Positions 5,649 through 42,252 of a DNA stretch of 64,000 nucleotides are shown in pieces; the first letter of the stretch is position 1, and each line of letters begins with the position of its first letter. The stretch covers positions 310,001 to 374,000 of the forward strand of contig JAOQAE010000002.1 in NCBI GenBank assembly GCA_025963725.1. Reading direction: 5' to 3'. A program made the translations under genes and the position numbers. This DNA is from Bacteroidota bacterium. GTDB lineage: Bacteria > Bacteroidota > Bacteroidia > 2-12-FULL-35-15. Below the pieces are notes generated by a model. That model had not been told where the DNA came from. It was given only the letters and a program-made list of their open reading frames with translations, and searched no databases.

Positions 5649-8186
5649 ATGGAAGCAAAATTTTCACCGAGAGTAAAAGATGTGATCACGTACAGTCGTG
5701 AGGAGGCTTTACGCCTTGGCCACGATTATATCGGCACCGAGCATTTGCTCTTAGGTATTATCCGCGAAGGCGAAGGAACAGCGATCCGCTTGTTAAAAAC
5801 GATCGGCGTTGACCTTATGGAACTTCGCAAAACTGTTGAAGATGCTATCGGAACAGGAAATCACAAGGTGAGCAATCTTGCGAACATCCCCCTGATGAAA
5901 CAGGCTGAGCGCGCCCTCAAAATCACTTACCTGGAGGCAAAGCTTTTCAAAAGCCCTGTGATCGGAACAGAACACCTGATCCTCTCTATATTAAAAGACG
6001 AAGACAATGTGGCGACAAAATCGCTGCACAAGTTTAAAATTGATTACGATGTGATCAAGCGCGAGCTGGAAATGACCAAATCGGACCCTAAAGCGGAATT
6101 CCCCGGAACACCGCCGGATGATGATGCCGATGATGACAGCTTCAGCGCAAGCAGCACTAAAAAACCGGTCGACAGCAAATCAAAAACGCCTGTGCTGGAT
6201 AATTTCGGCCGCGACCTTACAAAAGCTGCCGAAGACGGTAAGCTTGACCCGATCGTTGGACGCGAAAAAGAAATTGAGCGCGTTTCACAAATCCTTTCCC
6301 GCCGTAAAAAGAACAACCCGATCCTTATCGGTGAGCCGGGTGTTGGTAAATCAGCTATTGCTGAAGGACTTGCGCTCCGTATCGTTCAGCGCAAAGTGTC
6401 CCGCGTATTGTTCAACAAACGCGTGGTAACGCTTGACCTTGCTTCACTCGTTGCAGGTACAAAATACCGCGGACAGTTCGAGGAGCGTATGAAAGCCGTG
6501 ATGAACGAGCTCGAAAAATCACCGGATGTGATCCTCTTCATTGATGAGATCCACACTATTATCGGCGCCGGCGGAGCTTCCGGTTCCCTGGATGCTTCCA
6601 ATATGTTCAAGCCTGCGCTTGCACGCGGAGAGATCCAGTGCATCGGTGCTACTACGCTGGATGAGTACCGCCAGTACATTGAAAAGGACGGAGCGCTCGA
6701 AAGACGTTTCCAGAAAGTAATTGTTGAGCCTGCAACACAGGAAGAAACATTGCAGATCCTGAACAACATCAAATCGAAATACGAAGATCACCACAACGTA
6801 ACCTATACCGATGAGGCGATCAAGGCATGTGTTGCCCTCACTTCACGCTATATCACCGACCGTCACCTGCCGGATAAGGCAATTGATGCGCTGGATGAAT
6901 CGGGGTCACGCGTGCACATCACCAATATCAACGTTCCTAAAACGATCGTTGACATTGAGAAAAAGCTCGAGGAGATCAAAGAGGAAAAGAACAAAGTGGT
7001 TCGTTCCCAGAAATACGAAGAAGCGGCACGCCTGCGCGATACCGAGCGTACCTTGTTAGAGCAGCTGGAAATAGCGAAGAAGGCATGGGAAGAAGAAAGC
7101 AAAACGCACCGTGAAACGGTAAGCGAGGATAATGTTGCCGAAGTGGTTGCGATGATGACAGGCGTACCTGTTCAGCGGATCGCGCAAAATGAAGGCGATA
7201 AGCTGATGAAGATGGCTGATGAGCTGAAAGGCAAAGTGATCGGACAGGATGATGCCGTTAAAAAAGTGGTGAAAGCCATCCAGCGTAACCGCGCAGGGTT
7301 AAAGGACCCGAACAAGCCGATCGGCTCGTTCATTTTCCTTGGGCCTACCGGTGTTGGTAAAACACAGCTGGCTAAAATATTATCGAAATACCTGTTCGAC
7401 AATGATGATGCGCTGATCCGCATCGACATGAGCGAATACATGGAGAAATTTGCGGTTTCCCGCCTCGTGGGAGCGCCTCCGGGATATGTTGGCTATGAGG
7501 AAGGCGGACAGCTTACTGAAAAAGTACGCCGCCGTCCATACGCCGTAGTGCTGCTCGATGAGATCGAGAAAGCGCACCCGGATGTATTCAACCTGCTGCT
7601 GCAGGCCCTTGATGATGGACAAATGACAGACAGCCTCGGCCGTAAGATCGACTTCAAGAACACGATCATCATTATGACCTCCAACATTGGCGCACGCCAG
7701 CTGAAGGATTTCGGGCAGGGAGTTGGTTTTACCACTACTGCGAAAAAAGATACGGAGGAAGACCATGCAAAAGGTGTGATCGAAGGCGCGTTGAAAAAAG
7801 CATTCGCCCCTGAGTTCCTCAACAGGATCGATGATGTTGTAATGTTCAACTCACTTTCGCGTGAAGACATTCACAAGATCATTGACATTGAACTGAACAG
7901 CCTCTATGGCCGCATCAATGGCCTTGGCTACCAGATCAAGGTATCGGACGAAGCAAAAGATTTCATCTCGGAGAAAGGATACGATGTACAGTTCGGTGCC
8001 CGTCCGCTGAAGCGTGCCATCCAGAAATACCTGGAGGATCCATTGGCTGAGGAGATCATCAAATCAAGCCTTACCGAAGGAGATGTGATCGAAGTGAACT
8101 TTGATAAAGAGAAGCAGGAGATCCTGATCAAGATCAGCAAGCCGAAAGAACCGAAAGCAAAGAAATCCAAGAAGGAAGATTTGTAA
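5649..8186 (+). CDS. clpC: ATP-dependent Clp protease ATP-binding subunit ClpC
   Basis: 845 residues. Order: Clp N-terminal double repeat (about 1-145), an acidic Ser-rich linker, AAA+ module 1 with Walker A GEPGVGKS near 228 and Walker B FIDEIH near 295, a UVR-type coiled middle domain (about 430-475) that marks ClpC rather than ClpA or ClpB, AAA+ module 2 with GPTGVGKT near 564 and LLDEIEKAH, then a basic Lys-rich tail. It unfolds substrates and feeds them to ClpP in the cytoplasm; in many species it needs adaptor proteins. It is monocistronic: own promoter at 5558-5587 and terminator at 8207-8240. clpP is not in the window. Confidence 0.97.
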
Positions 8187-40600: not shown

Positions 40601-40608
40601 TATTTTTG
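40601..40608 (+). promoter_or_regulatory. -7 box adjacent to the start codon of the gene at 40612
   Basis: TATTTTTG, ending 3 nt before the ATG at 40612. It overlaps a TTG start candidate at 40606 and suggests a leaderless mRNA. Confidence 0.45.
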
Positions 40609-40611
40609 CAC

Positions 40612-41019
40612 ATGCCCCAGGAAGATTACATAAAGAAAGAGATCGACAAACTGGGCAAGCTGCTTGCAAAGGCGCTGGCCGACCTGGTCCGGCTCAAATC
40701 AAAAGGCCAGCTGAGCGATGCCCTGAATGTGACCGATCAAACCCTGCGCACGGAGTTGGGCATCGACCTTGAAGCGCTGTGCGCCCTTCCTCAAAATGAG
40801 CTCCTTCCCTTTCTTGCAGCTGAGAAAAAGCTCAGCAATGTTCAGATGGAGCTGATCGCAGACCTGCTGTTCGAAAGCGCGGAGAATGATCCCGCTGCTG
40901 TTTCAAAATACACCCGCGCCCTGCGGATCTACGAGGCTGTGACCGAAACCGAGCCGAACTATTCCATTAACCGCCACTTCAAAATTGAGCTGATCCGGCG
41001 GCTGTTGCGGGAAGCATAA
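40612..41019 (+). CDS. Small helical protein (DUF6483-like), unknown
   Basis: 135 residues from the ATG at 40612 (a TTG two codons upstream lies in the -7 box). Entirely helical and charged; no signal or membrane segment. MPQEDYIKKEIDKLGKLLAK at the N-terminus resembles DUF6483 proteins as I remember them, and the C-terminus (SKYTRALRIYEAVTETEPN) looks like one TPR hairpin. No function known. Confidence 0.72.
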   Translation: MPQEDYIKKEIDKLGKLLAKALADLVRLKSKGQLSDALNVTDQTLRTELGIDLEALCALPQNELLPFLAAEKKLSNVQMELIADLLFESAENDPAAVSKYTRALRIYEAVTETEPNYSINRHFKIELIRRLLREA

Positions 41020-41050
41020 AAAATATTTTTTTTCCGAATTAAATATTTTA

Positions 41051-41058
41051 TACCTTTG
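41051..41058 (+). promoter_or_regulatory. -7 box of the AAA ATPase gene
   Basis: TACCTTTG, full TAnnTTTG match, 48 nt before the ATG at 41107 and directly abutting the half-site array that starts at 41059. Confidence 0.55.
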
Positions 41059-41093
41059 GGTATTATACCATGTGGTATAATACCATTTAGTAT
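41059..41093 (+). promoter_or_regulatory. Array of alternating GGTAT/ATACC half-sites (operator-like)
   Basis: GGTAT at 41059-41063, ATACC at 41065-41069, GGTAT at 41074-41078, ATACC at 41080-41084 and GTAT at 41090-41093. The first two and next two form an 11-bp perfect inverted repeat (41059-41069 with 41074-41084); the arrangement also reads as two direct copies of ATACCATnTnGTAT with a 15-bp period. It covers the initial transcribed region just downstream of the -7 box, a good place for a repressor. Confidence 0.6.
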
Positions 41094-41106
41094 AAAATTA
41101 TTAAAC

Positions 41107-42252
41107 ATGAAGGACTCTCCATTTATTTACGGCACCACCGTAAGCACTCATTCCTTCACCAACAGGGAAAAGGAAACCGAAAAGCTGAAGAGCAACCTGC
41201 TCAACGGCATCAACACCATGATCATTTCCCCGCGGCGCTGGGGCAAATCATCGCTCGTGGAAAAAGTGATCCGCGAGATCGGCAGAAAGGAAAAGAAGAC
41301 CAAAACCGTGATCATCGACCTTTTTTCAGTGAGCAGCGAAGAGGAATTCCTCGAATTGTTTGCCCGCGAAGTGCTCAAAGCCTCCTCCACCAAATGGCAG
41401 GAATGGATCAACATGGGAAAGGAATTCTTTAAACAGCTGGTGCCGAAATTCAGCATGGGCTTTGAAGAAACCGATTTCAGCCTGAGCTTCGACTGGAAGG
41501 AATTAAAGAAGCACAGCCAGGAAGTGCTCAACCTGCCTGAATCCATCGCAAAAAAGAAAGGAATCCGCTTCATTATCTGCCTCGACGAATTCCAGAACAT
41601 CTCCAACTTCTCCACTTACACTGCCTTTGAAAAGAAAATGCGTGCCTGCTGGCAGCGCCATCATTCCGTTACCTATTGCCTCTATGGCAGCAAGCGGCAT
41701 ATGATGACGGATATCTTTAACAATGTATCCAAGCCTTTTTACCGCTTTGGCGACATCCTGTTACTGCAGAAGATCGACACCACGAAATGGATCAGCTTCA
41801 TCTGCAAAAGCTTTACCGGCTCCGGTAAGCAGATCCCGGAAGAGGTGGCAGCGCGGATCCCGCAGCTGATGAAGAATCACTCCTGGTATGTGCAGCAGCT
41901 GGCGCATTACACCTGGAACCTCACACAGCGCAAGGCTGGCAATGCCGAAATAGAAGCCGCGCTGAAAGAGCTGATCCAGGCAAACACGCCTTTGTACCAG
42001 AACGAAGTGGAGAACCTTAGCAACACGCAGATCAACCTCCTGAAGGCGGTGGCCAAAGGGGAAACGAAATTCACCAGCACTGCGGTGATGCAGGATTACC
42101 AATTAGGAACGCCCCGGAATGTAAGCAAGAACAGGCTGATCCTCACCAACAGCGACCTCATCCACGAGATGAACGGCGAATACGAATTCCTTGATCCCGC
42201 TTTTGAATTATGGTTTAAAAAGCAGTTCTTTAACAAACCTTACAGCAAATAA
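41107..42252 (+). CDS. AAA+ ATPase of the archaeal-ATPase (ATPase_2/STAND-like) type
   Basis: 381 residues from the ATG at 41107. Order: FTNREKETEKLKS entry motif, Walker A SPRRWGKSS (the usual PRRxGKT variant of this family), Walker B RFIICLDEFQN, sensor-1 CLYGSKRHMM, then a helical lid and a C-terminal winged helix (TQINLLKAVAKGETKFTS ... YEFLDPAFELWFKKQF). Members are found in many copies in archaea and Bacteroidetes and have no settled function; some carry a nuclease domain, this one does not. The promoter region holds an unusual half-site array. aroE starts 2 bp after its stop. Confidence 0.9.
   Translation: MKDSPFIYGTTVSTHSFTNREKETEKLKSNLLNGINTMIISPRRWGKSSLVEKVIREIGRKEKKTKTVIIDLFSVSSEEEFLELFAREVLKASSTKWQEWINMGKEFFKQLVPKFSMGFEETDFSLSFDWKELKKHSQEVLNLPESIAKKKGIRFIICLDEFQNISNFSTYTAFEKKMRACWQRHHSVTYCLYGSKRHMMTDIFNNVSKPFYRFGDILLLQKIDTTKWISFICKSFTGSGKQIPEEVAARIPQLMKNHSWYVQQLAHYTWNLTQRKAGNAEIEAALKELIQANTPLYQNEVENLSNTQINLLKAVAKGETKFTSTAVMQDYQLGTPRNVSKNRLILTNSDLIHEMNGEYEFLDPAFELWFKKQFFNKPYSK

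Follow-up and report, generated by a model that had tools for sequence, protein, structure and literature searches.

An alternating half-site array over the promoter of a Bacteroidota AAA+ ATPase gene is conserved and tracks the recognition helix of the ATPase itself

The proteins that most closely resemble the one described here are 2qen (PABY2304, from Pyrococcus abyssi) and 2fna (SSO1545, from Sulfolobus solfataricus), which likewise combine an AAA+ module with a C-terminal winged helix and for which nothing on DNA binding or self-regulation was found. Orc1/Cdc6 proteins use their winged helix together with the AAA+ module to bind inverted-repeat ORB elements, which constitute replication origins; restriction-modification control (C) proteins and phage repressors read paired palindromes in their own promoters, with a specificity that differs from one system to the next. 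For the ATPase family treated here, a literature search of only partial coverage, which does not exclude prior publication, returned nothing on arrays or self-binding.

Our analysis concerns an ATPase gene in a 64,000-nucleotide stretch of DNA from a Bacteroidota bacterium, hereafter the window. An earlier note on this DNA had reported the gene, a -7 box (TAnnTTTG, which we take to be the Bacteroidota -7 consensus) and alternating GGTAT and ATACC half-sites, all of which stand; it counted five half-sites where we count six, and it placed the array next to the -7 box, when in fact the two overlap, the first half-site (ATACC, 41050-41054) lying within the box. The promoter features are the following.

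41050 to 41093, no strand assigned: operator-like array, with palindromes at 41050-41063, 41065-41078 and 41080-41093 and one-base axes at 41064 and 41079
41051 to 41058, plus strand: -7-type promoter box TACCTTTG (TAnnTTTG), holding most of the first half-site
41059 to 41084, plus strand: perfect inverted repeat GGTATTATACC-ATGT-GGTATAATACC, for which an 11-bp RNA hairpin is possible if transcribed

The six half-sites form three palindromes of the type ATACC-N4-(G/A)GTAT that repeat every 15 bp, and positions 41048-41092 amount to a 15-bp unit repeated three times head to tail. With at most one mismatch allowed, ATACCNNNNGGTAT is found at five places in the whole window, three of them in the array, against a chance level of 0.77 on average and 3 at most (100 dinucleotide shuffles of the whole window), and the perfect palindrome TATACC-N4-GGTATA occurs a single time in the window's genome, at the ATPase promoter, while a control pattern does not occur at all. 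The gene itself starts at the ATG at 41107 and stops at 42250-42252; a TTG-started open reading frame of 398 amino acids, which would translate part of the array, was rejected as the gene because all close orthologues align at that ATG. Upstream of the array lies a small gene (40606-41019) with a weak likeness to DUF6483 (17.2 bits, under the cut-off). The features of the gene and its product are as follows.

41107 to 42252, plus strand: AAA+ ATPase of the archaeal ATPase_2 type with a C-terminal winged helix, 381 amino acids, assigned from profile matches, an AF2 model and fold neighbours
41227 to 41253, plus strand: Walker A region SPRRWGKSS, residues 41-49, with G46, K47 and S49 invariant in 73 members
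41584 to 41595, plus strand: Walker B region DEFQ, residues 160-163, invariant in 73 members
42112 to 42150, plus strand: recognition helix of the C-terminal winged helix, residues 336-348, from DSSP on the AF2 model; covaries with the half-site
42127 to 42129, plus strand: K341 codon; residue 341 tracks half-site positions 4-5

Judging by its profile scores, the protein is related to ATPase_2 (PF01637), though below Pfam's line (25.7 bits, E 1.2e-5, curated cut-off 33.2 bits); AAA_14 falls slightly under its cut-off (26.6 against 27 bits), the ORC-CDC6-like PF24389 gives a weak match (14.4 bits, E 0.016), and no full-length match to a PADLOC model was found, PDC-S01 covering residues 16-72 only (E 1.6e-5). 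The best sequence matches are 2qen and 2fna (E 4e-13 and 7e-15), which are also the best fold matches (Z 24.3 and 23.5 over 332-334 residues), and the fold match spans the whole length including the winged helix (model residues 2-372 aligned). The AF2 model, for which the input was the window protein and 72 homologues, has a mean pLDDT of 90.9 and was predicted after the covariation scan described below; it places the winged-helix helices at 306-316, 325-331 and 336-348 together with wing strands, the third of these being the recognition helix. The residues K47 (Walker A) and D160 and E161 (Walker B) are unchanged across the 73 members.

Within the genus, an intact ATPase orthologue (77-100% identity) is present in 7 of 36 genomes, the window's own included, and all seven copies sit between dedA and aroE and carry the array; the small DUF6483-like gene at 40606-41019 has a counterpart beside dedA in four of the seven ATPase-bearing genomes. 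When the seven promoters are aligned, the half-sites are conserved, the spacers are variable and the flanks are unrelated, and one genome has an array of four units, not three. A scan of the 36 genomes for the two-unit pattern returned 21 places, 18 of them at the seven ATPase promoters (reversed control, 1); the remaining three comprise one dedA-aroE junction from which the gene has been lost (G002) and two unrelated places. The 30 aroE loci that we read in the genus divide into 7 with the ATPase, 1 with a remnant, 15 gene-less dedA-aroE junctions and 7 other contexts. In G025 a 34-codon ATPase remnant persists with the array, two gene-less junctions keep a two-unit fossil array (G002, locus L052; G019, locus L055), and that of G010 retains a decayed array, judged by eye. 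From this survey of aroE loci it follows that the ATPase gene is old at the dedA-aroE site and has been lost repeatedly. In G019 the solitary array now lies directly 5' of the aroE start codon.

Outside the genus, the ATPase of nine genomes is 44-76% identical (55-76% in eight of them) when AroE is 46-59% identical, the corresponding within-genus ranges being 77-96% and 65-90%; horizontal transfer of the ATPase appears likely from these identities. For locus L168 an empty site was sought through its downstream gene, which is present in 37 of 40 genus genomes; among 30 loci, none but that of L168's own genome had the ATPase or the upstream neighbours, and the comparison yielded no element boundaries.

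The window's own genome holds one copy of the family, and the earlier note's remark that the family is multi-copy in relatives is borne out by 16 genomes of the sampled set that hold two to four distinct members. A second ATPase_2 gene of the window's genome, L285 (472 amino acids, 56.5 bits; about 6200-7030 of G000:C1, outside the window), has TTTCCGCCATAACT three times upstream of it, at intervals of about 27 bp and with the orientation alternating, and no further exact copy genome-wide; this may be a self-site system of a parallel kind, one whose half-sites are long.

The wider family was assembled from named genomes (80 loci), class genomes (30 loci and 60 fetched regions) and relatives, family matches being found in 75 of 395 class genomes and in 43 of 395 phylum genomes sampled. 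The 188 ATPase loci searched were reduced to 167 distinct members by removal of 2 without a match at the cut-off (the remnants L023 and L026), 7 that were short or cut and 12 duplicates. When the 110 bp upstream were tested for direct repeats without any assumed motif, 143 of the 167 scored positive (p<=0.05), with a lag of 14 or 15 bp in 125 of the 128 members at p<=0.01; the controls gave 3/167 in the gene's own coding sequence, 29/165 downstream and 32/166 further upstream. A second fit, which was blind to the protein and laid alternating 5-bp half-sites outward from a one-base axis (score at least 17.5), recovered an array in 141 of the 167 distinct members across Bacteroidota, the controls being 0/167 in the own coding sequence, 2/166 at 110-232 upstream, 2/167 in shuffled sequence, 11/165 downstream and 0-5/167 for other periods; in 14 of the 167 no array was seen even at a score of 15. 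With the array present at 7/7 orthologues in the genus and 141/167 members in the family, it is conserved with the gene, and one of the outcomes that the earlier note had named as refuting its reading, an array both unique and not conserved with the gene, did not materialise.

The arrays comprise 4 to 11 half-sites with a period of 15 (105 arrays) or 14 (36), a period that switched only twice on the tree, and 115 of the 141 overlap a TAnnTT(T/C)G box or stop at most 20 bp before one, compared with 6.7% in shuffled sequences. Half-sites mostly differ between subfamilies (ATACC, TTACC, TAACC, TAACA, TAATA, ATACA, ACACA, ACGCA, AAACA and others). None of 20 within-genome pairs of paralogues has identical half-sites; since 1.1 would be expected, this is not significant (P = 0.29), and we make no claim of insulation between paralogues. 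Among plasmid relatives (six plasmids, 23-28% identity, 6 of 20 matched records) no convincing array was found, L284 perhaps excepted. The remnant L026 (G042:C40) consists of an array and a decayed ATPase of about 42 codons; the genome, which is from another family, has two intact members as well.

The half-site changes with the protein that it precedes. Over the 141 members with an array score of at least 17.5 and 365 protein columns, normalised mutual information places residue 341, within the recognition helix, at the top of all columns for half-site positions 4 (z 6.1) and 5 (z 6.0), while position 1 peaks at P336/R337. Members with R341 have C4 in 49/55 and A5 in 49/55, those with K341 have C4 in 50/52 and C or T at position 5 in 49/52, I341 goes with T4A5 in 9/9, and R337 with A1T2 in 22/22; the resulting table of residues and half-sites is chemically plausible. 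Shared ancestry was addressed in three ways, namely nearest pairs, a tree from which the C-terminal winged helix (residue 303, approximately, onward) was left out, and low-identity representatives. Among 70 disjoint nearest pairs, residue 341 differs in 12 of the 14 in which position 4 has changed and in 5 of the 56 others (Fisher 4.5e-8, the best column). On the tree, changes coincide for position 4 and residue 341 on 13/23 branches (p 9e-9), for 5 and 341 on 12/22 (p 8e-8) and for 1 and 336 on 10/23 (p 6e-7), each pair ranking first of 365 columns. A rule based on residue 341 is right in 67 of 72 representatives below 60% identity, 20,000 label shuffles giving a mean of 25.8 and a maximum of 43. 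For half-site positions 2 and 3 the helix is not the best explanation in the tree or pair tests; in the pair test, moreover, residue 157 ties with 341 for position 5, and D330 ranks first for position 1, both columns lying outside the helix. The rule misses 11 of the 141 in the training set, of which L117, L151 and L225 fit under another axis spacing and the rest do not clearly do so.

The rule was fixed before the phylum-wide search: K341 predicts CC or CT, R341 predicts CA, and any other residue predicts a base other than C. Of 43 new distinct members, 24 carried arrays called with confidence; two of these, L348 and L355, lacked the helix, and in the 22 whose helix could be aligned the rule was correct throughout (K 5, R 2, others 15). 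These 22 share 24-71% identity with their nearest known member; L320 had been seen earlier, and without it the count is 21/21. Related new members are not independent, and for any single case 'other: not C' is a weak claim; the sharp tests are the seven with K or R. The earlier note had left the choice between a dimeric repressor and control of the gene through the C-terminal winged helix of its own product, and our data favour the latter over a separate repressor because the half-site changes with the helix residues and is predicted out of sample. That the window ATPase reads its own array is, in the absence of binding or expression data, strongly supported in silico.

We accordingly assign a probability of roughly 0.8 to autoregulation, whereby an Orc1/Cdc6-like AAA+ ATPase binds along its own promoter array. 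Each half-site would be read by recognition helix 336-348 of the winged helix of one subunit, and the subunits would alternate in orientation along the DNA with a period of 14 or 15 bp; the filled array would cover the -7 box and its surroundings and thereby shut down transcription of the gene until the level of the protein, or its nucleotide or ligand state, changes. Coevolution of recognition helix and array would leave half-sites that differ between members, making each copy private. Physical binding and cooperative assembly are inferred, as are repression over activation, because the array overlaps the -7 box, and ATP as the switch, because the Walker motifs are intact and the fold is of this kind.

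Three other explanations of the array were weighed. The array might be chiefly the working site of the ATPase, of an iteron-like or ORB-like kind serving an origin, segregation or a mobile element, with the overlap with the promoter being secondary. Among the closest folds after 2qen and 2fna are indeed DNA-bound TnsC and Orc1/Cdc6 on origin DNA, the ATPase and AroE identities outside the genus suggest transfer, and 13 of 138 members have, within 400 bp downstream, a further array built of the same half-site (other half-sites, 0/138), in 7 of them before a convergent gene; such a downstream array cannot be the operator of its own gene, a point that also tells against autoregulation. Yet the second array is confined to these 13, and 115 of 141 upstream arrays overlap a -7 box or closely precede one. 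Integrase, relaxase and replication genes do not recur among the neighbours, and in this genus the gene keeps one site, where it has been lost, not moved. We regard this explanation as unlikely.

A separate regulator encoded elsewhere would sit well with the fact that palindrome arrays are typical of many repressors. We nevertheless hold it to be very improbable because residues of the ATPase predict the site, its own recognition helix covarying with the half-site and residue 341 calling 22/22 new members, and because no partner gene recurs: among 533 neighbouring open reading frames none did so, save syntenic groups and cas1 in one clade, and no regulator gene recurs beside the family. Nor is the motif found at other genes, no regulon for TATACC-N4-GGTATA being visible in the 36 genus genomes, where the scattered single palindromes of other genomes are barely above control. 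The inverted repeat could finally act as RNA, whether as a leader hairpin, an attenuator or an RNA antitoxin, and GGUAUUAUACC/GGUAUAAUACC does have a predicted folding energy of -21.7 kcal/mol (z -3.2); this is barely credible, however, because many family arrays precede the -7 box (59 of 141 stop before it and would not be transcribed from that box), and an RNA model would not account for half-sites that covary with a DNA-recognition helix. Autoregulation remains the preferred reading.

The genomic surroundings offer further observations. The 110 immediate neighbours (of 226 passing filters) compared with PADLOC and Pfam are mostly housekeeping genes with few defence matches, so that no defence island was seen, in a comparison without a control set. 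The second downstream arrays belong to loci L019, L087, L098, L105, L127, L134, L161, L168, L171, L177, L202, L207 and L239; at L127 a copy of the promoter box stands between this array and the next gene. One clade has the ATPase immediately upstream of cas1 (L255 and L258-L262, at loci L019, L171, L172, L177, L182 and L186); Cas1 and, upstream, Cas9 were confirmed by Pfam in L258 and L255, they were named by eye from N-termini in the other four, and in three of the six a second array separates ATPase and cas1. In G496, of a genus of another class, a 1,870-amino-acid fusion (L368:1014-6623) begins with the ATPase/winged-helix module and contains TIR_2 (E 1.9e-9), NACHT-like (E 9e-6, just under the cut-off), pentapeptide and WD40 repeat domains; seven sibling genomes have open frames of 1319-1591 amino acids, the fusion domains having been checked in G496 only, and several fusion-type loci have ATTAT-type arrays.

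Because one clade is fused to TIR, NACHT-like and WD40 domains and another lies in cas9-cas1 loci, our present guess is that the protein may be a conditionally expressed sensor or effector. A broader proposal, which we put forward tentatively and consider doubtful, is that array and AAA+/winged-helix protein make up a switch that is complete in itself and transferable, its DNA code resting on little more than one residue: Orc/TnsC-like subunits, assembled along their private array, would hold the gene off until a ligand or invader changed their nucleotide state, upon which the assembly would dissolve and release a linked function (TIR-NACHT-WD40, or acquisition by cas1), the half-site acting as an incompatibility group that lets several copies coexist.

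The array is a real, conserved and mechanistically readable feature. Through it a widespread and functionally blank ATPase family acquires, in silico, a target for binding, a logic of regulation and a code at the level of residues that can be tested. With the residue-341 rule, operators can be predicted for members not yet seen, and repressor-operator pairs insulated from one another might be designed; the TIR/NACHT/WD40 fusions and the cas9-cas1 placement offer a starting point for finding out what the family guards.

Set against the known systems, the window ATPase shares the architecture of 2qen and 2fna at an identity of just 17-18%. It belongs to the same overall fold class as Orc1/Cdc6 on origin DNA (2qby and 2v1u, Z 18.5 and 17.8), from which it differs in that its array overlaps a promoter and has 5-bp half-sites at a 14/15-bp period, and in that the gene is dispensable and patchy. 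STAND/NLR proteins and TnsC are also fold neighbours (NRC4 resistosome, Z 17.2; TnsC, Z 17.0), and one clade resembles STAND/NLR proteins in its fusion to TIR_2, a NACHT-like domain and WD40, whereas most members, unlike STAND/NLR proteins and TnsC, are a lone ATPase and winged helix without sensor or effector domains or transposon genes. C proteins and phage repressors are small helix-turn-helix proteins without an ATPase, whereas here the putative reader is a 381-amino-acid AAA+ ATPase facing, across the family, 4 to 11 half-sites. The logic of self-control is thus ordinary; what is unusual is its carrier, an AAA+ ATPase family with no known role, together with its scale and a code that comes close to a single residue.
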